Numbered from the stretch's first letter, positions 17,137 through 32,922 are shown. The stretch: 63,625 bases of DNA from an uncultured bacterium (GCA_902779565.1 CACZCD010000026.1:1-63625), one strand, 5' to 3'. A program made the numbers and translations. The notes: generated by a model not told the origin, from the sequence alone.

Positions 17137-19333
17137 GCTGCTCCTTGTGGCCGCCACCGCCACACTCCTCGCCGGTTCCCTTCCCGCCCAGTTCCTTGAA
17201 GACCTCAAGGACCCGAATCCAAAACAGAAGTTCGGCGAACTCACCTTCTCGGGCGGCAACCTGACGGCCAGCCGCAAGACGGGCGAACTCTCGGCGACGG
17301 GCGACATCGTGGCCCAATCAGGCGACTACCGCTTCTTCACCGACAAGCTGTCGCGCAGCGCAAACGGCGTGTACGATTTCGGCGAGAAGGCGATGTTCAC
17401 CACCTGCTCCAACGACCTCGACCATCTTCACTGGAAACTCAAGGGGCACTTCATCTACGAGACGGAGAAGTCCATCACCGGGTCTGACATCTGGCTCTAT
17501 TTCATGGACATGCCGGTCCTCTGGCTTCCCTGGATGTACTATCCGCTGAACACGAACTACGGACTCCGCTTCCTCCCCGGCTACATGAACCGTTGGGGCT
17601 GCTACTTCCTTTCAGGCTACGTGTATGACATTGCCAATGAATCCGGCGAAAGCGCCCTGGGCCTCGGCGGCAGCACCTACTTCAACTGGCGGCAGAAGAA
17701 TGGCCTAGAGGTGGGGCAGACCGTCCGCTGGCGCCTGGGCGACTTCGGACACGGCAAGATCAAGGGCTTCTATGCCTGGGATGACGACTATGACCGTTAC
17801 AAGCGCCATTGGAGCGACTCCAGCCGCTACAACTACAGCAACTGGGGAAGCAAGGTCGATCGCGATCGCTACCGTCTCATCCTCGAACACCGCTCCGATT
17901 TCACGGAACGGGACGCGCTGAACGTCAAGGCGCAGTATCTCTCCGACTCGCACTATCTGCGCGACTTCTTCCGCAAAGACCACCGGCACGAGACAATCCC
18001 CGCGAATGAAGCATGGTACGAACACCGTGAGAACGTCTGGGCGGCAGGAGCATCCGTATCGGGACCTGTCAACGATTTCTATGCCGGCACGGCGCGCATC
18101 CCGGAGGCCTGGTTCGCGGTCGAGCCGCAGCCAATCTTCAATCTTCCTGTCAACTACGAATCCCAGACCCGCGCCGGCTACCTGAACCGGCAGTACGCCA
18201 AATACGGATCTGAAGACCCCATGTTCCGCTATCTGCCCTATATCGGACTGAACGGACGCGGGGCCGACTATCAGGCGTTCCGAGCCGACTCCAACCACCG
18301 GATCACGCTCCCCTTCATGCTCGGCGACCTCTTCTCCTTCGTGCCGCGCGCCGGCTACCGCGCCACCTGGTGGAGCGACTCGGGCGATCCCGCGAAAGAC
18401 TATCTCAACGCCTCGGGCGATGCGATGTACCGCGGCATCGCCGAAGTGGGCATCACCGCCTCCACCCGCGCCTCAGCCTGGCTGAACGATGACTGGCAGC
18501 ATATCTTCGAGCCCTACATCGACTACTCGTTCCAGGATGTCAATTTCGGCTCAGGCAAACGCAACCGCAACTACATCTTCGATAACTACGACGGATCCGT
18601 GGACTGGCTCGACCAGTTCGGCTTCGAGGGACGCGGACTCCCCTACAACTGGCACGGCATCCGTCCCGGCATCCGCAACTATCTGCGGAAACGCGAAGAG
18701 AACGGAACGACTCGTTCCGTTCTGGAGTCAGATGTCTATGCGGCCGTACCGTTCAAGGACGAAAGCTACATCAAGCAAGGCAGTTACGCCGGTTATCCCA
18801 AGGATACGGAGAACGGCTACTACAACCGCCACGAGTGCGTTGTGCCGGGGCTTCTCCTGCGCTTCAAGCCGTCTAACCGGTTCGCGTTCTCCTCGCGCAC
18901 CGAGTATGACATCGACGACGGAAAGGTCGCCTACGCCGACATCAAAATGGAGCATCGAGTCACACAGGACTTCTCGTGGACCCTCGGCTATATTGGCCGC
19001 GACCATCGCATCTGGGACTATCTTCCCTCGGAATGCGACCGTTGGAACTATCAGTATTCAAACATCATCCGTGGCGGGTTCCGCCATCAGGTCTGCGACT
19101 GGTTCGAATGGGCGCCCTACATCCGTTGGGATGCACGTTGCAACGAACTGGACGAGACGGGCATCTGGTTCGACTTCCTCACGGACTGCCTCGGCTTCCG
19201 TTTCTCGTTCAGCTATGAAAACGACATCCGTCGCATCGACGGGTCCAAGCAGGACAGCGATCTGGAGTTTGGTTTCGCGATCTATCTTCGCGCGCTCGGC
19301 GCCAGCTCAATGCTCGATCTCGCCAAGTTCTAA
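17129..19333 (+). CDS. LptD/OstA-like outer-membrane beta-barrel protein
   Basis: A 734-aa protein. A signal peptide (MPKLLLVAATATLLAGSLPAQ) is followed by an OstA-like N-terminal region (FGELTFSGGNLTASRKTGELSATGD) and a long aromatic-rich beta-barrel region with alternating polar and aromatic residues to the end. LptD inserts LPS into the outer leaflet. The usual paired cysteines are few, so function in LPS export is probable rather than shown. Start is by AGGAGG 8 nt upstream. Its 3' end overlaps the convergent addA gene by 27 bp. Confidence 0.78.
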   Translation: MPKLLLVAATATLLAGSLPAQFLEDLKDPNPKQKFGELTFSGGNLTASRKTGELSATGDIVAQSGDYRFFTDKLSRSANGVYDFGEKAMFTTCSNDLDHLHWKLKGHFIYETEKSITGSDIWLYFMDMPVLWLPWMYYPLNTNYGLRFLPGYMNRWGCYFLSGYVYDIANESGESALGLGGSTYFNWRQKNGLEVGQTVRWRLGDFGHGKIKGFYAWDDDYDRYKRHWSDSSRYNYSNWGSKVDRDRYRLILEHRSDFTERDALNVKAQYLSDSHYLRDFFRKDHRHETIPANEAWYEHRENVWAAGASVSGPVNDFYAGTARIPEAWFAVEPQPIFNLPVNYESQTRAGYLNRQYAKYGSEDPMFRYLPYIGLNGRGADYQAFRADSNHRITLPFMLGDLFSFVPRAGYRATWWSDSGDPAKDYLNASGDAMYRGIAEVGITASTRASAWLNDDWQHIFEPYIDYSFQDVNFGSGKRNRNYIFDNYDGSVDWLDQFGFEGRGLPYNWHGIRPGIRNYLRKREENGTTRSVLESDVYAAVPFKDESYIKQGSYAGYPKDTENGYYNRHECVVPGLLLRFKPSNRFAFSSRTEYDIDDGKVAYADIKMEHRVTQDFSWTLGYIGRDHRIWDYLPSECDRWNYQYSNIIRGGFRHQVCDWFEWAPYIRWDARCNELDETGIWFDFLTDCLGFRFSFSYENDIRRIDGSKQDSDLEFGFAIYLRALGASSMLDLAKF
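18699..18723. repeat. Perfect 10-bp inverted repeat inside the lptD-like gene
   Basis: AGAACGGAAC and GTTCCGTTCT are separated by 5 nt within the coding region of an extracellular-loop-like segment. It may be a chance structure or part of a small insertion. Confidence 0.4.
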
Positions 19334-22261
19334 CAGAGTGTCGCAGCATTTAACCGCCTCGCCGGTCGCGACGAGCAGCAGAACTGACTCAACGTGTGAC
19401 GGCGGAAGGTTCGCAAGCGAGGCGACGGCGGCGCGGTACGCGGTCATCTGTCCGGCGTATGTCGTGCGCATCCGCTCAGCGAACGCCTCCTTCGTCTCGC
19501 CACGCCGCAGAGCGTTCGTCTTGAAGTCGTAGATGGTTGCGCGCCGCGCATCGCCCTCGCCACGGAACACCACGCGGTCGAACTGCCCCGACTCCCACTC
19601 GGTCCCGACCAGCCGCTCGTAGCTCCGTTCGCGCCAAAGCGCAACCGCATCCTCGCCTCTCACAAACGCCGCCGTCCAGCCGTTCGCGAGAATCTGCCGT
19701 TCAATTTCGTTCTTCGGCGCAGCCGGATCAATCCATTCCACCGCCTCGAACTGCGCATGGAGGTCAATCCCCTTCTGCTGCGCCGCCTGACGCCCCGACC
19801 GCTCCGTGAACAGGTCGCCAGCCGACATCCCGGCGTGAAACGCAAGCGACGGCAAGCGGCGGCGGACACTCTCGCGCTTTTTGCGGATGAGCGCGTGCGG
19901 CGCCTCCGCCGCAGACGCGTTCGCCTGGGCGGCGCCGCCAAAACTCCCATACCACTTGGGATCGCCAATCGGCTCCGGGATCGCCTCCCGCACAAAGTCG
20001 GAGATGTAGCGCGAGGCTCCGGTTTTCGTCGGTGGACGGCAGACGATCGTCATCGCATTCTTCGCGCGCGTCATCGCCACATAGTAGGTGCAGAGCGCCT
20101 CTTCTTCAATGCGTTCCTGCCGCGCCGCACGCGCCGCCGAAAGCCCAGGCACGATCTTCGCAACCTTCGTTCCGGGATCTGGCAGCACCCATTCCGCCGT
20201 GACAAGCGCACCGTCCGGCGCCGCATCCAGCGCCTTCGGTTCGTAGAGCGGAAGAACGACGTAGTCGAAGCCGAGCCCCTTCGATCGGTGGATCGTCATG
20301 ATCTTCACCTTCCCCGGCTCCGCAAGGTTGCGCTTCTTCTTCGCCGCGAGGTAATCCGCAAAATCGGAAAGCCGCGTCCCCGGCTCAAGGCCCAGCTCGA
20401 ACTCGGCCGCCGCACGGAGCATGTCGGTGAAACGTTCCTCCGTGAACGCGCTCCACGCCTCGGCGGGATTTTCGGGAAGCCGTGCGCGCAATTCACGGAA
20501 CGTGCGGACGAGTCCCTTTGCCGTGAACGCCTGCGCGGCAAACTGCGACACCGCGTCGGCCCCGGGAACGCCTTCGGGATAGAGCGCCGCCGCCAGCGGT
20601 GTCTTGGCAAAATGGCGGTATGCCTGTGCGTAACCGGGATGGTCCGCCAACTTCACGAGATCGATGAACCCTTGCAGCGCGGGCGTATCGAGGATCGCAC
20701 TCTCCCCCTCCCAAACGACGCCTGTCATGCCCTTGGCCTTGAGAGAAGCGGCAATGGTCTCGCCCGTCTCGTTGTTCCTAACGAGAACGGCGGCCGAGAG
20801 GGCACGCCGCATCGGATCAACCGCCTTCAGCGCATTGTAAACCGGTTCCAGGAAGTCATCAAGCGCAGGGCCGACCGCATCGACCGCCTGCACGAATCCC
20901 GGCATCTCCGGCTTCGCCGACACGTGTTTCGCCGCCTCCCAGCCCGGAAACTCCTGACGAAGGCGGCCTTCCACAAAGACGCGGTTCACCGCCTCGACGA
21001 CGGCCGGCGACGAGCGGTAGGTCTTGTTGAGCTCACCCAAATCATAGGCACCACTTTCCCGTTCGCAGCGGAAGATGCCGACATCCCCATCACGCCAGCC
21101 GTAGATCGCCTGCTTCGTGTCGCCGACGATGAAGACCGACTTCTCACCGTCGGACTGCTTCGCCTCTTCGATAAGTCCGCCCAGCGCGGCCCACTGGTCG
21201 CGGCTCGTATCCTGAAACTCATCAAGCGCCCAGGCCCGAATCCTGGCATCCAAGCGGTATTCAAGCGCAAGGCGCACCTCAGGCGGAAGACCCGCCACGA
21301 GACGCGGCACATCGTCAAAGACAAGTAGCCCCTTCCCGCGCACGTTCGCCGCGTAGTCCTTCTCGTAGGCCGCGATCAGCCGATAGACGCCGCGCGCGAA
21401 CTCCAACCGGCGGCGAATGACATAACCGCACACGCCTAAGATTGCGTCACGCACCGCCTTCGCCTGTTCGCCGCCGAAAGAATATGCCTTTCGGTTGAAC
21501 GTCATCTCGATCGTCGAGCCCGAAAAGGGATCGTCCAACTCGAAGAACTTCTTGGCGAAACCCTTGAGATCCGAAAAACTGCCACGGAAGCCGCGCACCC
21601 ACTCGACGAACTCCATCCATTTGTCGGAATTGTCAATTCTGGCCAGGCCATCGGCAAGCCGCGAAAGATCGTCCTCCGTTGTCGCGGCCCAAGCGGGCGA
21701 CTCGCCCCAAAGCGTCGCCGCATCTCCCCAGGCACGTGCGTCGGGATGGGCGCGGACAAGCTTCTGCCAATCCTTGACGAACGCACGGTACGAATCAACG
21801 AAACTCCTCACGTCCTCGCCGTTCATCGCCAGCGCGAAAGCATCCGTGAACGCACGACGCACGGAGGTATCCGTCCGCCGAAGGATCGAAAACGACGTGC
21901 GCGCGAGCTCCTGTCCGGCGCGGTAGTCGTCCATGATCTCGACCCGCCCCTCAAGCCCCAGCTCCAACGGGAAGCTCCTCACGATGCGCATGAGGAAGCT
22001 GTCGAGCGTACCGATCTGCGAGAGGTGCTGCGTCGCGATGACCTTTCTCAGATATCCTGCGCAGGCGGGATCGTCCTTCGCGCGTTCGGCCAGAAGCGAC
22101 ACGAACCGTTCGAAGATCTCGCCCGCCGCCGCACGCGAGAACGTGAGCGCGACGATCTCGTGCGGTTCAAGTCCGCCCTTCACGAGCGCGATCAGCTGTT
22201 CGGCGAGCGCCTGCGTCTTGCCGGTTCCGGCAGAGGCCTCGATGAGCTTGTTCGCCGTCAT
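19307..22261 (-). CDS. addA: AddA/RecB-like UvrD-family helicase-nuclease
   Basis: A 984-aa SF1 helicase with a C-terminal PD-(D/E)XK nuclease. Motifs: Walker A EASAGTGKT (residues 8-16), motif Ia LTFSRAAAGE, Walker B WALDEFQDTS, VGDTKQAIYGWR, motif V TIHRSKGLGFDYVVLP, YVAMTRAKN. The nuclease has GQFDRVV...IYDFKTN and YAGQMTAY. It should process double-strand-break ends with AddB. It is the last gene of rmuC-addB-addA and overlaps addB by 4 bp. Confidence 0.9.
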   Translation of the reverse strand: MTANKLIEASAGTGKTQALAEQLIALVKGGLEPHEIVALTFSRAAAGEIFERFVSLLAERAKDDPACAGYLRKVIATQHLSQIGTLDSFLMRIVRSFPLELGLEGRVEIMDDYRAGQELARTSFSILRRTDTSVRRAFTDAFALAMNGEDVRSFVDSYRAFVKDWQKLVRAHPDARAWGDAATLWGESPAWAATTEDDLSRLADGLARIDNSDKWMEFVEWVRGFRGSFSDLKGFAKKFFELDDPFSGSTIEMTFNRKAYSFGGEQAKAVRDAILGVCGYVIRRRLEFARGVYRLIAAYEKDYAANVRGKGLLVFDDVPRLVAGLPPEVRLALEYRLDARIRAWALDEFQDTSRDQWAALGGLIEEAKQSDGEKSVFIVGDTKQAIYGWRDGDVGIFRCERESGAYDLGELNKTYRSSPAVVEAVNRVFVEGRLRQEFPGWEAAKHVSAKPEMPGFVQAVDAVGPALDDFLEPVYNALKAVDPMRRALSAAVLVRNNETGETIAASLKAKGMTGVVWEGESAILDTPALQGFIDLVKLADHPGYAQAYRHFAKTPLAAALYPEGVPGADAVSQFAAQAFTAKGLVRTFRELRARLPENPAEAWSAFTEERFTDMLRAAAEFELGLEPGTRLSDFADYLAAKKKRNLAEPGKVKIMTIHRSKGLGFDYVVLPLYEPKALDAAPDGALVTAEWVLPDPGTKVAKIVPGLSAARAARQERIEEEALCTYYVAMTRAKNAMTIVCRPPTKTGASRYISDFVREAIPEPIGDPKWYGSFGGAAQANASAAEAPHALIRKKRESVRRRLPSLAFHAGMSAGDLFTERSGRQAAQQKGIDLHAQFEAVEWIDPAAPKNEIERQILANGWTAAFVRGEDAVALWRERSYERLVGTEWESGQFDRVVFRGEGDARRATIYDFKTNALRRGETKEAFAERMRTTYAGQMTAYRAAVASLANLPPSHVESVLLLVATGEAVKCCDTLLELGEIEH

Positions 22262-24900
22262 CCGATCCTCCTTTCCTGATCGGCGATCCAGGCAGGATCG
22301 ACGCTTTCAGCCGGAGAGTCGAATATCCAGTCCGCAAAGTCCCACCGCCACTCGGACGTATCGGCCGCGGGCCAGAACACGCCACGCTCAATGCCACTGA
22401 TCAGTTCCTTCACCTGGACTTCGGCATCGGGAACCTCCGCGCCGGAGAACGACTCGGAGAAGCATGTCTCCTCGGCGGTCTTGGCAAGAACGCAGTAGCA
22501 GGCCGTGATGCGCTCGCGCCGCGCATCCAGGAATTCCGGATCGGCGTCGAGCATCGCGCAGTAGAGCGGCAACTGAAGACTCTTCCAGACGCGAACCTGT
22601 CCACCCGTTGCCTTGTCCTTCTTTTCCTCGTACGCAACGGCCCGCTCGGCACGGTCCCACGTCTTGTAGTCGATGACGCACCACTCGCCGGTCCGCTCGT
22701 TGAAATCAATCCGGTCGCAGCGTCCGTTCACGAGCGTATGGCCGTAGGTGACTTTCATCTTGCGCTCTGTCGCCTTGATTCGCCAACCCTCCGCCGCGCG
22801 CGCGGCCTGAAGCACAGCGAAACGTCGCAGCCGTCGCTTGACGCTCTCGCCCTGAAGTGCAACGATAGCGGGAACTGACAGCCCAAAGCGTTCCGTGAGC
22901 AACGCGTCCACCCGTTCCTCAAGCGCACCGGCAATCGCCTCGGCATCCGTCGAATCCTTCAAGTCGCCATTTCCCCAGGCCTCCAACGCATCGTGCGCGA
23001 GGTGGCCGAACTCCGACGCATCGAGTTCGTCAGCCCGATAGTCCTCACTCTCGCCGAAAGTCTTCTGCAGAATATAGGTGAAGGGACAGTGCAGATAGAG
23101 ATCAAGGTTCGACGGCGACGTCCGGGTAAGTTCGTTATGCTCGGACGGCACAGGCAGACGGATCCGCCACGGCACGGGCAGATCGGCGGGCGGCATTTCA
23201 TCTGTGCCGGCGCGCGTCGCGTAGAGCGCATTCACGCGACGGAACAGTTCGTGGTCGTCGGCACAGTCAAACAGGAGCCGGGATGGTTTCAACACATCGC
23301 CCGCGCCATCGACGGAATGGAAATGCACCTTCACCGCCGCCGTTTCGCGGCAGGCAATCGTCATCGCCAGAATCGTCTGATCGCGCACGGTGCGGGCGGT
23401 ATTATCGACGAGACCGAGTCCGCGCCGGAACGCGTCAGGAAGAAACGCATGGCCAACGACCGATTCAGGGACCTTCCCTTCGGCGAATCCGGAAATGACC
23501 ACCTCCTCCGCATCGAGGAACGGGAGTTCCAGCCAACCGTCGGTCAGGATCGTCTCGCCTTCATCCGGCTCAAGCTCGTAGGTCGCTTCGCTAAGACGGC
23601 GCTCGAAAAGTTCCAGCGCCAGCTCGCGCGGCACATCCGCCGCAAAGCATTCGTCGATCAGGCCATTCACCACCTCGGCCGCCGCCGCGAACTCGCGCGA
23701 ACGTTCGTCACGTTCGTCGAGGACAAGTGTCGAGAAGATCGAAGCGAGAATCTGCCGCAGACCATGTTTCCGGAGCTGCACCTTGATGAACTCGAAGATC
23801 CCACGGAGCGTGTGCTCCGTCTTGGGCGCAATGTCGTCGATCTTTGCGGGGATCAGCTGCTGCTGACGGTTGTCGAGATCGACAAGCGCCGCAGTGAGCT
23901 CGGCCTCGTTGAGATCCAGCTCCGCCTTGAGCCATCGCCGGACGTCCCCGCCGCGCACGAACGCGGAGAAGACGGAGTAGGAAGACGTGCGCGCCAACAC
24001 CGCAAGCTGATGCGCGAGATGGCCGAGCGAGGAGGTCGCGAGCGCCATCGCGGACGGATTGTGCGCATTGAACCCCTTCGCGCGAAGCGCGCCTTGAAGG
24101 TCCGGGAACGTCTCGGGATCGGCGAGGCAGAGCGCGGGAAGCGCCTCGTTCGATTTTACGGACGCGAAATGCGTTGCGATCTTCGCGGCCTCGCTCGCCG
24201 CCGTTCCCGACGCGACGATCTGAGACATCTTGAGTTCGGGTGCCGACGAGACATCGGGGACAAGTTCCGTCACGGGAAGACCACACTGCTCAAGGATGCG
24301 ATTCATTAAGGGGAGCGGATCGAGCACACAGGCAACAACCACCTCCTCCACACCCGGAAACGCGGGAGGATTCGCCAACTGCTCCTTCAGGGCAACGATC
24401 CGGTCACGCTTGCCGCGCCGGGCAAGCGCAGCGAGATAACGCGTCTCGCATTGCGCAAGGCCGTTCCAGCGCTCAATCTCGATGTCAACGAGATCCCCCG
24501 TGAGAATCGTGCCGACCTTCTCCGCGACATCGGCGAAGGAAAGTGCGTTCGCGCCGAGGATGCGCCGGACATCCGCGAGTTCGGCGGCGACATCGAAACC
24601 ACCCTTCCCGTCGCGCGCCTCACGCCAAGCCAATAGCTCATCGGCGCGCCCGGCGATATCCGGGGCAGAGAGATCGACAAGGTGCGCCGGCATCTTGACG
24701 CAAGGCGGAACGAGTCCGGCGGGGAAACGCCGCGCCAGCGCATGGCGGAGGCGACGACCGCTCTGCGCCGTCGGGACGATGACGAGAAGATGCGCGAGCG
24801 ACGATACGCCCGCCGCGTCCGGCCGCACCCGCGCCGCCAGCCAGTCAGCCACCGCATCAACGGCTTTCCGCCGTGCATCAAACGCCTCAATCCGCCTCAT
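22258..24900 (-). CDS. addB: AddB-like PD-(D/E)XK nuclease/inactivated helicase
   Basis: An 880-aa protein. The N-terminal half resembles a helicase without an intact Walker A. The C-terminal nuclease domain contains NGRCDRID...WCVIDYKT and KSLQLPLYCAML, the RecB-family nuclease signature. The usual iron-sulfur cysteine pattern is not evident. It pairs with AddA for end resection. The ATG at 24900 with AAGGAG just upstream is preferred; another ATG lies at 24915. It overlaps the rmuC end by 14 bp. Confidence 0.82.
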   Translation of the reverse strand: MRRIEAFDARRKAVDAVADWLAARVRPDAAGVSSLAHLLVIVPTAQSGRRLRHALARRFPAGLVPPCVKMPAHLVDLSAPDIAGRADELLAWREARDGKGGFDVAAELADVRRILGANALSFADVAEKVGTILTGDLVDIEIERWNGLAQCETRYLAALARRGKRDRIVALKEQLANPPAFPGVEEVVVACVLDPLPLMNRILEQCGLPVTELVPDVSSAPELKMSQIVASGTAASEAAKIATHFASVKSNEALPALCLADPETFPDLQGALRAKGFNAHNPSAMALATSSLGHLAHQLAVLARTSSYSVFSAFVRGGDVRRWLKAELDLNEAELTAALVDLDNRQQQLIPAKIDDIAPKTEHTLRGIFEFIKVQLRKHGLRQILASIFSTLVLDERDERSREFAAAAEVVNGLIDECFAADVPRELALELFERRLSEATYELEPDEGETILTDGWLELPFLDAEEVVISGFAEGKVPESVVGHAFLPDAFRRGLGLVDNTARTVRDQTILAMTIACRETAAVKVHFHSVDGAGDVLKPSRLLFDCADDHELFRRVNALYATRAGTDEMPPADLPVPWRIRLPVPSEHNELTRTSPSNLDLYLHCPFTYILQKTFGESEDYRADELDASEFGHLAHDALEAWGNGDLKDSTDAEAIAGALEERVDALLTERFGLSVPAIVALQGESVKRRLRRFAVLQAARAAEGWRIKATERKMKVTYGHTLVNGRCDRIDFNERTGEWCVIDYKTWDRAERAVAYEEKKDKATGGQVRVWKSLQLPLYCAMLDADPEFLDARRERITACYCVLAKTAEETCFSESFSGAEVPDAEVQVKELISGIERGVFWPAADTSEWRWDFADWIFDSPAESVDPAWIADQERRIG

Positions 24901-26158
24901 GTTCTCCTTCTTCATCGTCTGCAGCGTCAATCGGTTCTTTGAGGCATTCAGCCTGCTCCAGTTTCTTGCCCCTGCTGTTCTCAAGCCTCACATGGAGATC
25001 GATGAGCCGTTTCGCCGCCTTCGCGATCGTGTGCGTGCGCGGCGCATCCACAAGGGACGTGCGCGCCTTCTCGTACTCATCCTGAAGGGATCCGATCGCA
25101 TGGCCCAGATTCTCGAAGGTGATGAGGAAACTGTTCATCCGCGCGAGCAGTTCGCGCGCCGTATCGACGATCTCCTGCTGGTTGCGGGCCTCCTTCTCGT
25201 GTTGCCACGCGAGATAGACGAGACGGATGTAGGCCAACAGCGTCAGCGGCGTGATGAGGATCACATTGTTCTGCGCCGCGAACTGCCAAATCGACGGATC
25301 AGCCCTGAGCGCCTCCATGAGCGGAGCCTCGTACGGCACGAACATCGCCGTGATCGGCAGATAGTTGCGGTCCTTGAACTCATCGGAAAGTACCTTGGGA
25401 TACTGCTTCTTCGCGAGCTGATCGATCTTGCCGCGCACGCTGGCGACATGGGCCGCCAGCTTCTCCGCCTTCGTCGCGTCGTCCTTAGCTTCCATGTATT
25501 CCATGTACGCGGTGAGGCTGACCTTGCTGTCGATGACGAGCCAGCGGTTCTCCGTGTCGCAAACCTGCGCATCAGGCCGGTCAGACCCAGTGCCGCGCTG
25601 AAGGAAGAAGTTGACGTTCTCTTCAAGCCCCGCCTGACGCAGCTTTTCCGCCAGGATGTCCTCTCCAATGCGCCCCTGCACCCGTGTGTTCGACTTGAGC
25701 GCCGCAGCCGCCCCAGCGAGCGCCTGGGCGATCTGGCCGATCGCATCCACATCCTTCGTGATCGTCTCCCCCAGATGGACACGTGCGCTTTCAGCCTTCA
25801 CCGTAGCGTCCTGCAGCCGCCCCATCTGCTCCCGCAACGGTTTCAACACCGCCTCAAGATGCGACTTGTTGAGCTCGGTGAGATCCGCGCTCTGCGACTT
25901 CAGCGTCTGAGCCGCCAGCACCGAGAACTGCTCCCGAAGCGTCTTGACCGTCTCGGCGAAGTTGCGCGTGAGCATCGCATCCTTCTCAGCGAGTAGTTTT
26001 GTACAGGCCTTATCCTTCTCCGCCAAAAGTCTTGCGCAGGTCTCCTCCTTGGCTGCCAGAAGACGACGACACACCACAACAGCTACCACGAGCGCAACAA
26101 GAAATCCCACGAGTCCGCCCGCGACAGCTACAACCAGATCGATGTTCGTCATTGCCAT
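24887..26158 (-). CDS. rmuC: DNA recombination protein RmuC
   Basis: A 423-aa protein. It has an N-terminal membrane segment (VVAVAGGLVGFLVALVVAVVV), a long coiled coil (about residues 35-150), then the RmuC nuclease-like domain (GRIGEDILAEKLRQAGL, RPDAQVCDTENRWLVIDSKVSL). RmuC limits inversion at short repeats and is thought to be a nuclease. The start at 26158 has GGGAGG upstream. A separate extended -10 lies 61 nt upstream, so this starts a new transcription unit after the helicase gene. Confidence 0.9.
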   Translation of the reverse strand: MAMTNIDLVVAVAGGLVGFLVALVVAVVVCRRLLAAKEETCARLLAEKDKACTKLLAEKDAMLTRNFAETVKTLREQFSVLAAQTLKSQSADLTELNKSHLEAVLKPLREQMGRLQDATVKAESARVHLGETITKDVDAIGQIAQALAGAAAALKSNTRVQGRIGEDILAEKLRQAGLEENVNFFLQRGTGSDRPDAQVCDTENRWLVIDSKVSLTAYMEYMEAKDDATKAEKLAAHVASVRGKIDQLAKKQYPKVLSDEFKDRNYLPITAMFVPYEAPLMEALRADPSIWQFAAQNNVILITPLTLLAYIRLVYLAWQHEKEARNQQEIVDTARELLARMNSFLITFENLGHAIGSLQDEYEKARTSLVDAPRTHTIAKAAKRLIDLHVRLENSRGKKLEQAECLKEPIDAADDEEGEHEAD

Positions 26159-26219
26159 GCAACCTCCCATCCGGTTTTTTCTTCACAATTGAATTTTCCC
26201 TTACCCATAACAGAGCAGT

Positions 26220-26225
26220 ATTATA
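26220..26225 (-). promoter_or_regulatory. Extended -10 promoter of rmuC-addB-addA
   Basis: TGGTATAAT on the minus strand overlapping the stop region of the helicase gene. The predicted leader is about 55 nt and includes a Shine-Dalgarno. Confidence 0.55.
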
Positions 26226-27882
26226 CCAAATGTTCCTCCTTCTTCTCCCGCGTCGCGAGGAAATGGCGGATGTCCCCTTTCGCGGTGCCGGCGAAGCGAT
26301 CCATCAGCGCGGGGACAAGCCGTCCCATCACGGGCGTGAAATGCTCATCGGCGGCGGCGATAATCGCCTCGAACGGTGTATTGCGGCGGTAGGTCCGAGC
26401 AACTTCGTTGTAGCCGAAGTTCAGGAAATCCTCCGTGAAATCCAGATTGGGCTCCGTGCCGGAGAGGAGACGCCTGAGCCGAATCATCTCGCGCACGATC
26501 TCCACCCCGAGGCGCCGTGGGGAGATGGTCGATGAAAAGCTCCGCTGACAGTTCCGGAGGCGAATCACAATCGCCGGAATCGGGACATCGTCCTCGCGCC
26601 CGAAGTCCCGGATCGCCATCGCCACGGTCCGGCTGCTATCCATCACCTTGCTCAGATGCAGGGCGCAAGGCGGCAAGGTGCCCTGCCAGCACGCCTCGTT
26701 CACGATTCCGTAGAAACGCTGGAACGCCGCATAGATGCTCCCGAAGCGCGCATAGAACGTCTCCTCCTGCTGCTTCGCGGCATCCATCCGCTCGAGAGCG
26801 CGACGGAACCGTCCGGGGGCCTTCCGCCGGGCATGGCGGTATTCCTGCTTCCGCTCCTGACGGTCCTCCTTCTGCCGCAGTGCCATGAGACGCAACGTCT
26901 CCTTGAGCGTATTCTCGATTGCCTCCGTGCCGTCCGTGAGCGCCAGCCAGTGCCCCTGCTGCCAGCGGAAGGCGTTCTTCGGCTTCGCGACGCGCTCGAA
27001 GAGATAGTTCGACGTGCTGCCTTGAACGATGTTGCAAGCCTCCTTCCCGGGGGCGCGGCGCAGACCGCGCCCGCACATCTGTACCGTCGGAAGCCGCGAG
27101 GCGTCGCGTGCGAAGATGCTCATCACGTCCGGCTGGTCGAAACCCTCCGTGAGCATCGCCACGTTCGCGATCACCGGCACGCGTCCCTCCTCGAACGCCA
27201 CCATCTGCACATCCTTGTTCGATTCGCCCGTCACCACTTCGCAGCCAATGCCCCCTTCCGCCAGACGCGCCTTGAACGCCACGCATTCCGCGATTGTGCT
27301 GAAGAAGACAAGCGACTTCCCCCATTTCTCGGGGGCGGCGAGATAGTGGTCCGCCACCGAATCCACGCTGTAGGTGGGGATGAGGTAAGAATTGAACGGG
27401 CTGAGATAACCCTCGCGAATCAGCCGTCCGATCGGACACGTCCGCACCGTCTCCTGGAACGAGAGCTTCATCCGGTCCGTCCGCAGCGGCGTCGCCGAAA
27501 GACCGAGCGTCCACTTCGCGCGCATCTTCTCGTAGAGCAATACGCAGCTCTGCGTGGCCTCATGGTGCGCCTCGTCGAGAACCACGAAATCCGCCTCGGG
27601 CGGCGACGAGGCGAAGAGCGACACGGGGCGGATGCTGTCACGGTACAAATCCCGGTTCGCCTCCATCACCTGCTGAAGGAGACGATGGCGCGGCGCAACC
27701 CAGTTGATCCTGAGCTTCCGCCCGAGCTTCTCCTGCAGACGATGGAGCATCTCCAAGGCCATGTAGGTCTTGCCGGATCCCACGGGCGATTCAAGGAGAA
27801 CCGACTCGCGTCCCTTCTCCGCAAATGCCGCCAGCGTCGTGTCGATGGCCTCCGTCTGGTAGCGACGCTTCTCGTACGCCAT
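26221..27882 (-). CDS. SF2 DEAH helicase with degenerate SprT-like C-terminal region
   Basis: A 553-aa protein. The SF2 core has Walker A ESPVGSGKT (residues 31-39), DEAH at 103-106, GLSATPLR, NVAMLTEGFDQPDV and QMCGRGLRR, so the ATPase should be active. A charged helical linker (residues about 330-370) is followed by FYGIVNEACWQGTLPPCALHL, resembling the start of SprT metallopeptidases. The expected HExxH position reads VEIVREMIRL, so the zinc site appears lost (inference). The ATG overlaps the DUF932-like stop by one base, indicating tight coupling in one unit controlled by the sigma54 promoter upstream. Confidence 0.8.
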   Translation of the reverse strand: MAYEKRRYQTEAIDTTLAAFAEKGRESVLLESPVGSGKTYMALEMLHRLQEKLGRKLRINWVAPRHRLLQQVMEANRDLYRDSIRPVSLFASSPPEADFVVLDEAHHEATQSCVLLYEKMRAKWTLGLSATPLRTDRMKLSFQETVRTCPIGRLIREGYLSPFNSYLIPTYSVDSVADHYLAAPEKWGKSLVFFSTIAECVAFKARLAEGGIGCEVVTGESNKDVQMVAFEEGRVPVIANVAMLTEGFDQPDVMSIFARDASRLPTVQMCGRGLRRAPGKEACNIVQGSTSNYLFERVAKPKNAFRWQQGHWLALTDGTEAIENTLKETLRLMALRQKEDRQERKQEYRHARRKAPGRFRRALERMDAAKQQEETFYARFGSIYAAFQRFYGIVNEACWQGTLPPCALHLSKVMDSSRTVAMAIRDFGREDDVPIPAIVIRLRNCQRSFSSTISPRRLGVEIVREMIRLRRLLSGTEPNLDFTEDFLNFGYNEVARTYRRNTPFEAIIAAADEHFTPVMGRLVPALMDRFAGTAKGDIRHFLATREKKEEHLV

Positions 27883-28970
27883 CAGGCGACCTCCCGGTCG
27901 AAATCGATTCCGCGCAGGTAGAAGTCCGCCGTACGACGTGCATTCGGGTAGAGGTCCTCCAGATCGAACCCCTTGGAGAGCAACGTGCCGGCAAACGTCT
28001 GGATGGGGGCTGGCTGCTTCAGCATATCAGCGTGATGCGTGACAAGCTCCGAGGCAAAGTTCAGGAGGTCCCCCACCGAACATCCCACCGGCAGAAGCGC
28101 CCGCTTCTTCTGGCCGATGTTCGACAGCTCCGTCACGCCGTACCGCACGCACGGATCCTCCGCGATCTCGTAGAGCCGTTCGCGGAGAAGCGTCTGGTTG
28201 CGTGTGCTGGCCACCGAACGGCGGATCATGCCATCCAAAAGCACCACCTCGCCCACGGACGCCTTCGTCTCGGCGGCTACGCACATCTTCTCCTGCAGCG
28301 CCTCCACGCCCGTCGGGTTGCTGAACGAACCCAGCAGACGACGGAAGTGCTCGCCGGAGTTGTCCTTGATCTCCATCTTCGTGCGGAACAGCGGCGCTTC
28401 GGCGATGGCGCCGTTCTCGCAGACCTGACGCCACGAGGCGAGATTGATGTCCGGCATGCCCACGCCGTCCACCGGCACGCGGCAACGGAAACGGACATGA
28501 TACTCGCTGTCGTTCGGCACCTCCCACGCTTCGTCGAGATCCAACGTCGCGCTCATCACCCCATCAGAATACTCCATCTCCTTCAGGCGACCGTCATCGT
28601 GCAGGACATTTTCGATGAATTTCACCGGCATCGGCAACCCCTGATTGGTCGTGACGCCCAGCACCTTCCCGTCGCCCGTATCGATTGTCATGCGCAACGG
28701 ATGGTCCGGCTCCTTCACGGCCGCGCGCGTCATCACCTCGAGGGGGGAAAAGAACCCAAACACGCCAAACGGGATGCCCAGTTCGGCGGCCATCGTCTTG
28801 TAGAACCGCTCAGTCGGCCGGTAGCTCCGTCCGTCGAGAATCAGTCCATTGATTTGCGTATCATCGCAGTCGAGCATGGCAACCATGCTGCGCGGTGTGA
28901 CGGGGATCGGCTCGAACCGCTCCCCGATCCGTTCATCCGGTTTCAGTTTCGTCGTTTTCTTCTTTGACAT
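27882..28970 (-). CDS. DUF932-like protein
   Basis: A 362-aa cytoplasmic protein without signal or membrane segments. The central RCRVPVDG...RQVCENGAI pattern and overall length resemble DUF932 proteins found on phages and plasmids, but the match is from memory and moderate. It is the first gene after the sigma54 promoter and is coupled to the helicase downstream. Function unknown; context suggests stress-induced nucleic-acid handling. The start codon has only a distant AGGAG. Confidence 0.5.
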   Translation of the reverse strand: MSKKKTTKLKPDERIGERFEPIPVTPRSMVAMLDCDDTQINGLILDGRSYRPTERFYKTMAAELGIPFGVFGFFSPLEVMTRAAVKEPDHPLRMTIDTGDGKVLGVTTNQGLPMPVKFIENVLHDDGRLKEMEYSDGVMSATLDLDEAWEVPNDSEYHVRFRCRVPVDGVGMPDINLASWRQVCENGAIAEAPLFRTKMEIKDNSGEHFRRLLGSFSNPTGVEALQEKMCVAAETKASVGEVVLLDGMIRRSVASTRNQTLLRERLYEIAEDPCVRYGVTELSNIGQKKRALLPVGCSVGDLLNFASELVTHHADMLKQPAPIQTFAGTLLSKGFDLEDLYPNARRTADFYLRGIDFDREVA

Positions 28971-29011
28971 ATTATTAGACTCTCCTATTTCCTATGAACA
29001 CCACGCGGCAG

Positions 29012-29231
29012 AATTTCTTAGTAATGTCGCAACGTTTGAGATGACAGATAAAGTTAGGAATGGCTGATAAAACTCTCCCCCTGAGACAGGGGGAGTGCCC
29101 CGGAGGGGCGAGGGGGTATGATTCCGTCACCCGTCATACTCCCCCGGCCTCCGGCCACCCCCTCTATCTTAGAGGGGGAGTCTGCATTCCCATAATATCA
29201 TCTCCAACTTTGCGACATTACCAATTTCTTA
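29012..29231. mobile_element. MITE-like palindromic element with 9-bp target duplication
   Basis: The element spans about 29021-29222. Its left end (29021-29044, GTAATGTCGCAA...) is the inverted complement of its right end (29198-29221, ...TTGCGACATTAC), with 22 of 24 positions matching. It is flanked by direct repeats AATTTCTTA at 29012-29020 and 29223-29231. The interior is itself palindromic, with hairpins CTCCCCCT/AGGGGGAG and CCCCCTCT/AGAGGGGG. There is no coding capacity, so it would need a transposase in trans. It lies in the predicted leader of the DUF932-helicase mRNA. Confidence 0.85.
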
Positions 29232-29238
29232 CGCGTGA

Positions 29239-29253
29239 TTGGCTTTTCGCCAA
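29239..29253 (-). promoter_or_regulatory. Small hairpin at the predicted start of the sigma54 transcript
   Basis: TTGGC-TTTTC-GCCAA, a perfect 5-bp stem immediately downstream of the predicted transcription start near 29255. Confidence 0.35.
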
Positions 29254-29265
29254 ACGTTCTAACCC

Positions 29266-29281
29266 TGCAGAAAGCGTGCCA
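29266..29281 (-). promoter_or_regulatory. Sigma54 (-24/-12) promoter of the DUF932-helicase operon
   Basis: The minus strand reads TGGCACGCTTTCTGCA. It matches the consensus TGGCACG-N4-TTGCA except for one T-to-C, with correct GG-GC spacing. It points toward the DUF932-like gene and lies directly after the sigma54 activator gene. Confidence 0.8.
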
Positions 29282-29338
29282 GAGAGGAGGGAACGGCTTT
29301 TATCGATGCAAAACGACGCATTTCCCGCCAAATACACT

Positions 29339-29359
29339 TGTCCCATCCGCAAGCGGACA
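29339..29359. promoter_or_regulatory. Candidate activator-binding palindrome (UAS)
   Basis: TGTCC...CCGC-AA-GCGG...ACA. The core TCCGCAAGCGGA (29346-29357) is a perfect inverted repeat, and TGTCC/GGACA form partly nested outer arms. It is centred about 95 bp upstream of the predicted start, the usual distance for a sigma54 activator site. Confidence 0.5.
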
Positions 29360-29391
29360 GAAGAGGGTGGTCAGAAATTGAATCGGTGGCG

Positions 29392-30945
29392 TCAGTTTTT
29401 GATTGGCTTCTTCAGCCATTCGCGCACCGTGTTCTCCGCGCGGCCCAGCCGCTGGGCGATCTCCCGAAGCGAATGGCCCTTGTACCGGTCGGCGACGCGG
29501 TGGACGTGACGGGTAATCACGGCGTCGAGCGAATCATCGTCGCATGCGTCGGGCTCATGCGCGGACTCATGGCGCAATCCCTTGTTCTCCCGCTTCCAGT
29601 ACTCGACCAACGCCGTGAAATCCGTGATCTTCATGACGCGGGCGTAGAGCAGCATGTTCTCAAGTTCCCGCGCGTTTCCCGGGAAGTCGTATTGGACCAG
29701 AGCGTTACGTTGTTCCCGGCTCAACTCCTTTCCGGTCTCCCGGTACCAGATGGCGCGGGCAATCTCGGGGATGTCCTCCGGGCGGTCAGCCAGCGATTTC
29801 ATCCGGATCTGGATCACGTTCAGGCGGTAGTAGAGATCCTCCCGGAACCGCCCTTCGTTCACGAGCTGGACGAGATCCTTGTTCGTGGCGGTGATTACCC
29901 GGACGTTCTGCACCTTGCGCGGTACCGACTCGCCGACCTTCAGGTAGTCGCCATCCTGCAGGACGCGCAAAAGCTGCCCCTGCATGTAAAAGTTGAGGTC
30001 CGCGACCTCATCAAGAAAGAGCGTGCCGTTCGCCGCCGTCTCGAAGAGTCCCAAGCTGTCCCGCGAATCCGTGAACGCCCCCCTGACGCTTCCGAAGAGC
30101 TTGCTTTCGAACAGGCTTTCCGTCGTGCAGGCGCAGTTGAACGTGAGGAACGCGCCGTTCTCCCGGCTCTTCGACTTCCGGTGGATCAGCTGAGCGACGG
30201 TCTCCTTCCCCGTGCCGCTCGGGCCGGTGATCAGCACGCGCGCGGCGGGATCGTCACATTCCGCCGCCAGATTCGCCAGCCGACGCACCTCCTCCATGTG
30301 CGGAGAGCTGCCGATCAGCTGCCGGTTGCCCCATTTGCCGTAGTAATCGACGACGGCGATGAGCGCTGGCTCGATGTTCGCGTATTTCACCCCGCTGGCA
30401 AGTGAGAAGATCGCGCGCGGGTAGTACTCCATCTCGCGGTCGTTCTTGTGCTTCCAGTCCGCCGCCTGGAAAAGCCGCCGGTACTGCCCCTCCTCGGAAC
30501 TGCCTTTCACGCGTCCGGCGGCGAACCGGCGGAACGTCTCCACATCCTTCGCGGAGATCTGCCGCGGAAAGGCTTTCTGCACCGCCAGAAAGAGATCGCC
30601 CTCCACAATCACCGTCCGGTCGAAGACGGAGGAACCATCCTTCAGCATGAACTCGACGGCAACCTCGGAGGGAATGGCGCAGCCGCTGATCCACCAGACC
30701 TTGACGCCGGACTCCTTGAGCTTCCGCAGTTCGGCGGCGATGGCCTTCGGCTCCTTGGAGAGTCCCACGCCGAGCACATACACCTCCGAGCACGTCTCCT
30801 CGCATTTCTTCAGCGCAATCGGCAGATGCCGCTGCGACACGCCCATCACCTCCGCCGTGCACTTGAACGCGCACCGCAGCAGCATCGCCGCCGCCGGCGC
30901 ATACTCCGGCAGTCCCCAACCTGTCATGATCAACCGTTTCGCCAT
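29392..30945 (-). CDS. Sigma54-dependent transcriptional activator with an unrecognised N-terminal domain
   Basis: A 517-aa activator. The AAA+ domain has Walker A GPSGTGKE (241-248), the sigma54-contact loop GAFTD (289-293), Walker B GTLFLDE (307-313) and the sensor region REDLYYRLNV. The C-terminal HTH is SLREIAQRLGRAENTVREWL. The first 210 residues alternate beta and alpha elements (EVYVLGVGL, KVWWISG) in a Rossmann-like pattern and are not a receiver, PAS or GAF domain. They also do not match my recollection of the RtcR N-terminus. The gene is upstream of a sigma54 promoter driving DUF932-helicase, its likely target. Confidence 0.85.
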   Translation of the reverse strand: MAKRLIMTGWGLPEYAPAAAMLLRCAFKCTAEVMGVSQRHLPIALKKCEETCSEVYVLGVGLSKEPKAIAAELRKLKESGVKVWWISGCAIPSEVAVEFMLKDGSSVFDRTVIVEGDLFLAVQKAFPRQISAKDVETFRRFAAGRVKGSSEEGQYRRLFQAADWKHKNDREMEYYPRAIFSLASGVKYANIEPALIAVVDYYGKWGNRQLIGSSPHMEEVRRLANLAAECDDPAARVLITGPSGTGKETVAQLIHRKSKSRENGAFLTFNCACTTESLFESKLFGSVRGAFTDSRDSLGLFETAANGTLFLDEVADLNFYMQGQLLRVLQDGDYLKVGESVPRKVQNVRVITATNKDLVQLVNEGRFREDLYYRLNVIQIRMKSLADRPEDIPEIARAIWYRETGKELSREQRNALVQYDFPGNARELENMLLYARVMKITDFTALVEYWKRENKGLRHESAHEPDACDDDSLDAVITRHVHRVADRYKGHSLREIAQRLGRAENTVREWLKKPIKN

Positions 30946-30968
30946 TTCAATCTCCTGAAAACCGCCCG

Positions 30969-30974
30969 ATTATA
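30969..30974 (-). promoter_or_regulatory. Extended -10 promoter of the sigma54 activator gene
   Basis: TGATATAAT, 23 nt upstream of the ATG at 30945. Unlike the leaderless genes, an AGGAGA ribosome site is present between them. Confidence 0.6.
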
Positions 30975-31020
30975 TCACATCCGCCCCGATCAGGACACAA
31001 CCCGCCGATTTCAACGGCAA

Positions 31021-32922
31021 TCAGTCGGCGACTTCGGCGACTTCGCCGGGTTTCAGCTTCAGGGTGACTCGCGGTGCATCGGCGGCGCGTTGCACGACGG
31101 CCTCCTGCACAAGGTGCAGCTCCGTGTTGAGAAGGTAGATCGTGCCGTCGGGATAGACGCTCCAGCGGACGGAGTCGGAGCACTCTACCTTCGGCCAGAC
31201 CGTCGAGCCAATCGCCTCCATCGCCTTCGCCATCAGGAAGGAATAGAACTTGCGCACGCCAAACGCGCCCGGCGAATCAAGCGAAGCGAGGAAGATCACA
31301 CGTCCCCTGCCAATCTCGTTCACGAACAGGACGCCCTTGCAGTCCGCCATCTTCTTCTCGTGGAAGCGGTCGGACGCCACGGCGAACGGTTTCGCCGTCG
31401 TCGCCTCAAGTTGCGGAACATCGAATCCGCCCTCAATGAAATCAGGATCCCACATGTCTGTGAACGGCTGGAAATTCCAGCCGGGGCCGGGGTTCATCAC
31501 GAACTTTGTGCCATGCGGCAGATGCCACGGCTTGCCGTCCTGCATCTTCACGCCGACGAGCGCCGACCAGTCACCGCCGTTGTAGGGGATGAATGCACCA
31601 TTTGGCACGTTCTGCGACGTGAGGTGGCTTGCCGCCAACATCAGCGTGCCGCCGTTCTTCACGTATGCGATAAGTTTGGCATAGAGGGCATCGTCCATGA
31701 TGTTCCGTCCCAGGAAGAAGAGGAACCGGTATTTCGCCAATGCCGCATCCGGCGCATCGAACGGGATGATTCCGGCCGCGCCAAGTGGCGGATTGCCTGA
31801 GTAGTCCGCCTCGCCCCAGCTGTCGCGTTCCTGCCAACCGCGCCGACGATAAAGGCCATCGAAGAGCCGCCACGCCGTGCGATCCGCCTCCGTCACGCGG
31901 AAGGCGTCGTTCGCGCGCTGCCCGAAGAGGTGCGTCTGGAAGATGCCGACATAACCGTCGAAGCGTCCCTGGATCGCGCCGACCGTCGCGAGCGGATAGC
32001 CGTCCGCACGCGGATGCGCCTTGCACCACGCCGTGAAATCGGCGAGCACCTTGCGGTAGCGGCGCGAGACGGGATGGTCATGGTCGAACTTCCGCCCATG
32101 GCACTTGTGGCTCATCAGCCCGTGTTCGTTGTAGATCGGATCGGCACCACGGATGTAGGCGTGGTAAAGCGAGGTGCGCCAGCGCGCCTCCCACAGCGCA
32201 TCGCTCTGCATGCCGCCATACCATTCCATTGCCATGTCCGTGCCGAAACGCTTGCGCCCAAACACCTCGGCGGCCGTCTTCGTGCCGGCGTACGCGCGCT
32301 CCAGCTCGTCGGAATAGACGACCTCCAGATCGACGCGATCATACCCCGCGCGCAGAAGAAAGGGCGAAAAACCGAACGCACATTCGATTGAGAAGACCGG
32401 TTCCGGCAGACCAGCTTCCTTCGCCTGCCGCAGATCCGCCCGCACCTGGGCGCAAGTGGATTCGTACGCCTGCGCCAGAGAGTTTCCGCCCTTCGCGATA
32501 CGCGGCGAGAACACACCCTTGTTCATCGCATCGTGCGGATGCCAGTAGAACATCAGCCCGCCCGTCTCGCTGTAGTGCTGCGTGCCAACGCACACGTCGC
32601 TATAGTCCCGGAGCGCGGCGAGAAGCTCCTCCTTCTGTGGCGCGTACTCGCTCTTCATCTTGCCGCTCCAGCGGTTGAACATCTCGTCCATCGTGAAAAC
32701 ACACCCGTGCTTGCGGCAGTGTTCGCCGACGGCACGTATCTTCTCGGGCGTCCATTTCCCATGGAAGAGGTTCAGCAGATTGCCGCATCCGTCCCGAGTC
32801 AGCGTCTCTGCGGTGGAGACGCCATACCCTCCCTCCGCGATGGACCCCGTCTGCACGACATGCGCCGCCGGTGCCATCCCGGCACACGCAACCACCACGA
32901 ACAAAAACATCAACCGCTTCAT
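31021..32922 (-). CDS. Secreted protein with beta/alpha-barrel-like body, probably glycan-active
   Basis: A 633-aa protein with a signal peptide (MKRLMFLFVVVACAGMAPA). The middle has patterns of a TIM barrel (GTDMAMEWYGG, FTMDEMFNRW). After about residue 380 there is a glutamine-amidotransferase-like segment (KYRFLFFLGRNIMDDALYA, KNGGTLMLAASH), seen in beta-galactosidase trimerisation domains. No family assignment is secure. AGGAGG lies 7 nt upstream of the ATG. It begins a long run of secreted minus-strand genes. Heptamer repeats precede it. Confidence 0.6.
   Translation of the reverse strand: MKRLMFLFVVVACAGMAPAAHVVQTGSIAEGGYGVSTAETLTRDGCGNLLNLFHGKWTPEKIRAVGEHCRKHGCVFTMDEMFNRWSGKMKSEYAPQKEELLAALRDYSDVCVGTQHYSETGGLMFYWHPHDAMNKGVFSPRIAKGGNSLAQAYESTCAQVRADLRQAKEAGLPEPVFSIECAFGFSPFLLRAGYDRVDLEVVYSDELERAYAGTKTAAEVFGRKRFGTDMAMEWYGGMQSDALWEARWRTSLYHAYIRGADPIYNEHGLMSHKCHGRKFDHDHPVSRRYRKVLADFTAWCKAHPRADGYPLATVGAIQGRFDGYVGIFQTHLFGQRANDAFRVTEADRTAWRLFDGLYRRRGWQERDSWGEADYSGNPPLGAAGIIPFDAPDAALAKYRFLFFLGRNIMDDALYAKLIAYVKNGGTLMLAASHLTSQNVPNGAFIPYNGGDWSALVGVKMQDGKPWHLPHGTKFVMNPGPGWNFQPFTDMWDPDFIEGGFDVPQLEATTAKPFAVASDRFHEKKMADCKGVLFVNEIGRGRVIFLASLDSPGAFGVRKFYSFLMAKAMEAIGSTVWPKVECSDSVRWSVYPDGTIYLLNTELHLVQEAVVQRAADAPRVTLKLKPGEVAEVAD

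Follow-up and report, generated by a model that had tools for sequence, protein, structure and literature searches.

The stretch of DNA analysed here (63,625 nt of an uncultured bacterium, GCA_902779565.1 CACZCD010000026.1:1-63625, referred to as the window) carries a three-gene locus formed by a sigma54 (RpoN) enhancer-binding activator, a protein with remote resemblance to DUF932 (the DUF-like protein) and a superfamily 2 (SF2) DEAH helicase. The activator gene (29392-30945; 517 aa) is followed by the genes of the DUF-like protein (27882-28970; 362 aa) and the helicase (26221-27882; 553 aa), whose start overlaps the preceding stop codon by 1 nt. The open reading frames, all on the minus strand, bear out this layout and the 1-nt overlap, both described in an earlier reading of the sequence (the original prediction). 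All results presented are computational. As a whole, the locus would represent a sigma54-dependent inducible operon in which an activator with a DHH-fold sensor controls the DUF-helicase pair, an explanation to which we assign a probability of roughly 60%.

The activator and its sensor domain

The activator comprises a sensor (residues 1-206), an AAA+ sigma54 interaction domain (208-440) and a C-terminal helix-turn-helix (483-513), the last also found by Pfam search. The Pfam domain Sigma54_activat (PF00158) matches residues 210-380 with an expectation value (E) of 5e-56 and 189.5 bits, against a cut-off of 20.2, and the motifs GPSGTGKE (Walker A, position 241), GAFTDS (289) and LFLDEV (309) can be read in the protein. 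By domain content and motifs, the activator is a sigma54 AAA+ enhancer-binding protein, as the original prediction had stated, noting intact Walker and GAFTD motifs. The loop reads GAFTDS in the window; of 37 relatives, 30 have GAFTGA or a close variant. An RpoN gene is present in the same genome.

The sensor (30328-30945, minus strand) had been described as about 210 N-terminal residues without an assignable family, and indeed none of the 38 aligned members shows a convincing Pfam match in residues 1-206. Structure prediction and profile searches point neither to a GAF nor to a receiver domain; the predicted fold is that of DHH phosphoesterases. The AlphaFold2 model reached a predicted local distance difference test score (pLDDT) of 95.8, and its top Foldseek matches are RecJ and a PAP phosphatase. 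In VIA-align, 21 of the 22 top rows belong to the DHH family, and the remaining row is uncharacterised. The best row (Z 13.8, 174 residues, root-mean-square deviation 3.4) gives an alignment spanning the whole domain, with Cdc45 entries slightly below the top DHH rows. The sensor is thus predicted to adopt the fold shared by RecJ, PAP phosphatase and Cdc45.

An origin from another Rossmann-like domain (sugar-isomerase, periplasmic-binding or divergent CARF), sensing a metabolite in an ordinary metabolic or stress regulator, would accommodate the SIS-type regulators and Rossmann-like folds that also appear among the Foldseek matches, as well as the lack of a significant sequence match between the sensor and DHH proteins. 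These other Rossmann-like proteins reach Z values of 9-10.6 over shorter stretches, most of about 110-118 residues, while DHH entries dominate the first 22 rows and cover the whole domain, including its helical second half. A CARF or RtcR identity of the sensor was rejected, with no match by Pfam in any of the 38 members, none by PADLOC, and a profile comparison E of 0.38; the structures listed for the sensor likewise include no CARF entry, which is uninformative taken alone. Furthermore, many neighbours and promoter targets of the activators are nucleic-acid enzymes or restriction proteins. We regard this other origin as unlikely.

The DHH motifs were placed on the sensor alignment by eye, from the known RecJ motifs. 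In this register, DxD corresponds to W10/L12, the single D to G59 and DHH to W85-I86-S87. Where metal ligands are expected, 35-38 of the 38 members have W, G and S, the replacements themselves being conserved. Only an acidic residue (D/E) at position 14 is kept, in 36 of 38. PF01368 (DHH) matches no member of this set. Invariant residues (G9, Y15, G35, S37, G59 and S87) and near-invariant ones (W10, R39 and W85) sit in or directly behind beta-strands, where the DHH active site is expected. Judging by the replaced motifs, the catalytic function of the domain appears to be lost. A domain that is still an enzyme, using unusual active-site residues to destroy its own signal, would equally explain why the pocket residues W10, S37, R39 and S87 are strongly conserved, a pattern that fits a working site of either kind; the replaced metal ligands, by the same by-eye register, argue against such activity and make it improbable.

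Among the genomes scanned, the sensor-activator fusion occurs almost only in Kiritimatiellae, Lentisphaerae and Verrucomicrobia. Scans recovered it from 45 of 388 genomes of the phylum and from 73 loci of named genomes, of which the titled ones are nearly all from these three groups, with one from Pseudomonadota; the 73-locus scan used one short motif, which more distant members may escape. The two sets overlap, so that the approximately 110 loci do not correspond to 110 independent genomes. Pattern scans of viral contigs detected no relative of the sensor.

Promoter, upstream palindromes and an inserted element

A candidate sigma54 -24/-12 promoter, TGGCACGCTTTCTGCA, lies at 29266-29281 on the minus strand, with one mismatch to TGGCAC-N5-TTGCW. 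The original prediction had placed a near-perfect sigma54 promoter just downstream of the activator gene; the site itself is there, but it carries the mismatch, stands at chance level when taken alone, and lies 311 bp from the DUF start codon. This distance is explained by a miniature inverted-repeat transposable element (MITE) inserted between promoter and operon (29012-29231), 211 bp long, with 27-nt terminal inverted repeats and a 9-bp target duplication, AATTTCTTA, at 29012-29020 and 29223-29231. Dozens of related copies exist in the genome, and without the insertion the promoter would lie about 100 bp from the DUF gene.

Support for the promoter comes from paired upstream sites. A palindrome, TGGTCAAAATTTGACCA, precedes sigma54-like sites in activator loci, phased and frequently in tandem. 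It was first spotted by eye in twelve promoters and then tested; the matrix used was refined on a dereplicated set of 72 sites. Within this set, and therefore in-sample, since the matrix was refined on the loci counted, the palindrome accompanies 55 of the 72 sigma54-like sites versus 6.0 in shuffles, and a tandem pair accompanies 35 of the 72 versus 0.05. Its positions cluster near -77, -66, -57 and -45, in steps of about 10 bp.

The window, which lies outside the training set, contains a single tandem pair (spacing 19-22) in its 63.6 kb, at 29368-29405. Both candidate activator sites are on the minus strand and were located with the matrix from other loci: site 1, CAATCAAAAACTGACGC, at 29389-29405, overlaps the activator stop codon, and site 2, GATTCAATTTCTGACCA, at 29368-29384, lies 21 bp from it with a score of 15.2. 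If the family-wide motif is a guide, the activator would bind these tandem palindromes, 100 and 121 bp upstream of the -24 element.

The association recurs in other genomes. Counting the window, the DUF operon has seven candidate sigma54 promoters, of which six carry the palindrome; this test is partly independent, as one of these loci (L168) was in the training set of the matrix. In the window's own genome, also outside that set, a tandem pair marks two of 14 sigma54-pattern sites: the promoter described here and one that precedes a double-AAA ATPase 43-58% identical to ATPases near activators elsewhere. The proposal that the activator controls the DUF-helicase pair consequently gains sequence support, from the position of the window's sole tandem pair and from the palindrome at five of six other operon promoters.

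A hairpin resembling a terminator directly precedes the -24 element, with a folding energy of -14.1 versus -9.6 for shuffled sequence and -11.3 for a nearby control, a modest difference. At promoters of activator loci, a hairpin and a T-rich stretch are often present ahead of the -24 element (T fraction 0.45 versus 0.21 in the control).

The DUF-helicase pair

The label DUF932-like, given to the first protein of the pair in the original prediction, is only weakly supported. Pfam, PHROGs and NCBIfam provide no support for DUF932, and PF06067 scores above its cut-off in none of 13 members. Comparison of the family profile with 32 DUF932 proteins, a set made of genome members, yielded a weak match (E 0.0015, probability 17%) at residues 99-191, where the DG...RxVCxN pattern is located. 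A remote match of this kind does not establish membership. The fold model of the protein is of middling quality (pLDDT 75), and found no Protein Data Bank match with E below 0.3 and VIA-align Z values of at most 7.7. Pattern scans of viral contigs revealed no relative that would suggest a viral origin. In one relative (L036, G044), the DUF frame is interrupted, giving two parts (residues 1-188 and 202-362), which may reflect a frameshift or a sequencing error.

The DEAH helicase call is confirmed by the SF2 motifs GSGKT (Walker A), DEAH, SAT and QMCGRG (motif VI), together with a Pfam ResIII domain. These motifs are common to RadD/YejH and other SF2 helicases. RadD is the best NCBIfam match (E 1e-12), although its 46.9 bits fall far below the 720-bit equivalog cut-off, which rules out a RadD identity. 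The original prediction did not describe the C-terminus of this protein, where residues 390-513, approximately (26344-26715, minus strand), form a degenerate domain of the SprT-like metalloprotease type. The tail is related to SprT-like (Spartan-type) metalloproteases: L168, a sister locus, has a separate gene whose product matches PF10263 and resembles the tail at 48% over 50 residues. The zinc-binding HExxH motif is intact (as HEMxH) in L032, L033, L035, L168 and L282; in the window and its close kin it is degenerate, and REMIR takes its place in the window domain.

Gene order within the pair is conserved, with the helicase directly 3' of the DUF-like gene in every locus with enough sequence (the window, 15 relatives and seven more). 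The original prediction required the gene order to recur in at least one relative, and the DUF-helicase order does so, although only three of the examined loci have the activator close to the pair. These three (the window, G078 and L168) belong to different branches of the DUF tree. In G078, GmrSD and PLD genes stand between the activator and the pair; in L168, the activator is divergent from the pair and preceded by an exonuclease-like gene, so named because it resembles, on inspection by eye, the RNase_T-domain genes next to other activators. As a separate observation, G078 presents five sigma54-like sites within about 20 kb, all on one strand (L033 842, 3636, 5581 and 7387; L080 9331), near genes for GmrSD restriction, an ADP-ribosylglycohydrolase-like protein, a PIF1 helicase and DUF proteins, with a DHH-type activator in the same stretch.

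The pair itself is patchily distributed, being present in 14 of 95 relatives and in 12 of 388 genomes of the phylum. Such a spread, together with the resemblance of the helicase to the phage helicase family phrog_16, would suit a replication or transfer module of a mobile element that has the activator as a chance neighbour. We give this little credence, considering that the pattern scan of viral contigs found no relative, that the linkage between activator and pair occurs in three branches of the DUF tree, and that activator-family sites mark the operon promoter even in genomes where the activator is not adjacent.

The original prediction had also invoked RtcR, and the analogy proved to be a good one, as an RtcR-type activator gene lies beside the helicase of the pair in six relatives (in L024 the assignment is confirmed by PF06956, and the remaining five are grouped with it by sequence clustering) and RtcB lies just upstream of the pair in L037. 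The window's own genome encodes a genuine RtcR (230 bits with PF06956) and RtcB on another contig. From these facts it could be argued that the pair is primarily an RNA-repair accessory under RtcR elsewhere, the DHH-type activator representing a regulator swap in the window's lineage and some others. We consider this less likely than not: the loci with RtcR are close relatives of each other and may reflect few events, and they show no matching sigma54 site just upstream of the DUF gene. Upstream of the pair, four of them also encode a fused beta-beta' RNA polymerase-like protein (1620-1655 aa; L024 8988-13916, L025 11264-16123, L026 1170-6053 and L028 6857-11824), with GADFDGD in all three members whose sequence was read and distant beta' relatives in viral contigs.

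Proposed mechanism and its relation to known systems

In the explanation favoured here, the predicted DHH fold at the N-terminus, having lost its usual catalytic residues, would serve as a sensor. DHH enzymes act on nanoRNA, pAp, pApA or single-stranded DNA. By analogy with these enzymes and with the CARF domain of RtcR, the sensor most likely binds a nucleotide or a short oligonucleotide that arises from nucleic-acid damage or phage attack. Ligand binding would free the AAA+ domain to form an active oligomer, enabling sigma54-RNA polymerase to open the promoter at 29281-29266, as established for this class of proteins. The ligands of the RtcR CARF domain are 5' fragments of tRNA that carry a terminal 2',3'-cyclic phosphate; once they are bound, AAA+ inhibition is released and RtcR oligomerises (PMC7790460). 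Judging by the SprT and helicase families, the products of the operon, the DUF-like protein and the SF2 helicase carrying the SprT-like tail, probably target nucleic acid with bound or crosslinked protein and may have an effector role in repair or defence.

Several findings weigh against this explanation, in addition to the in-sample character of the palindrome counts. The profile-profile comparison (hhalign) between the sensor and the RecJ and NrnA families was not significant (E 0.05); sequence-level DHH homology was accordingly dropped, and kinship to DHH proteins rests on the fold and the by-eye motif register. The window sensor also deviates from the family consensus at L12, H40, H166 and D169, among other positions. 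Genome-wide, sigma54 sites of this kind number 14 versus 22 for the reversed pattern, and the promoter call therefore leans on the tandem upstream palindromes, whose spacing range was set after the first examples had been inspected. Finally, the DUF-operon promoter candidate of L282 has no palindrome, and most activators do not adjoin a DUF-helicase pair.

In related bacteria, gene neighbours and promoter sites suggest a dispersed defence or repair regulon of this activator family, with GmrSD-type restriction proteins, a double-AAA ATPase and a DEDD exonuclease as its apparent targets. More broadly, and only tentatively, the inactivated DHH domain could be a receptor for oligonucleotide or nucleotide signals that drives a GmrSD, AAA+, exonuclease and DUF-helicase-SprT regulon through sigma54 and the palindrome, as a counterpart of CARF signalling built on a different fold.

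Comparison with known systems delimits what would be new. RtcR, the CARF-AAA+-HTH activator of rtcBA RNA-repair operons, is likewise a one-component sigma54 activator with an N-terminal sensor; the window sensor, in contrast, has no CARF or RtcR match and a predicted DHH fold, and its operon contains neither rtcA nor rtcB. The nearest precedent is the placement of RtcR-like sigma54 activators beside restriction systems in CoCoNuT/restriction super-operons (PMC11090510). CARF sensors are combined there with McrBC-type effectors, whereas a DHH-like sensor is found here with DUF-helicase-SprT, GmrSD and AAA genes. Cdc45, a RecJ-related component of the replicative helicase complex (PMC4873980, PMC3307487), shares with RecJ the predicted fold of the sensor, but the window domain is fused to a sigma54 AAA+ domain and lacks significant sequence similarity.

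The literature searched contained no paper joining DUF932 with RtcR, nor Kiritimatiellae with sigma54. The few papers joining DHH with sigma54 enhancer-binding proteins, in what was mainly non-subscription literature, appear from their titles and abstracts to concern other subjects. Provisionally, the best reading is that this type of sensor is new among RtcR-like sigma54 switches. For sigma54 activators tied to repair and restriction, the nucleic-acid-sensing input that we found described is the CARF domain of RtcR; a second fold in this role would imply that inducible surveillance of nucleic acids has arisen more than once in bacteria. In that case, the readable binding site would expose the regulon and point to specific genes and ligands for experiments across a large group of uncultured gut bacteria. 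The locus also brings together, as one module, a DUF-like protein of unassigned family, a helicase and a protease of the SprT type.

As for the surroundings of the locus, no Rfam match to a structured RNA was obtained within 25000-32000. RmuC is encoded at 24887-26170 of the window, and at 22258-24984 and 19307-22261 a PD-(D/E)XK protein adjoins a UvrD-type helicase, an arrangement that is AddAB-like by domain content.

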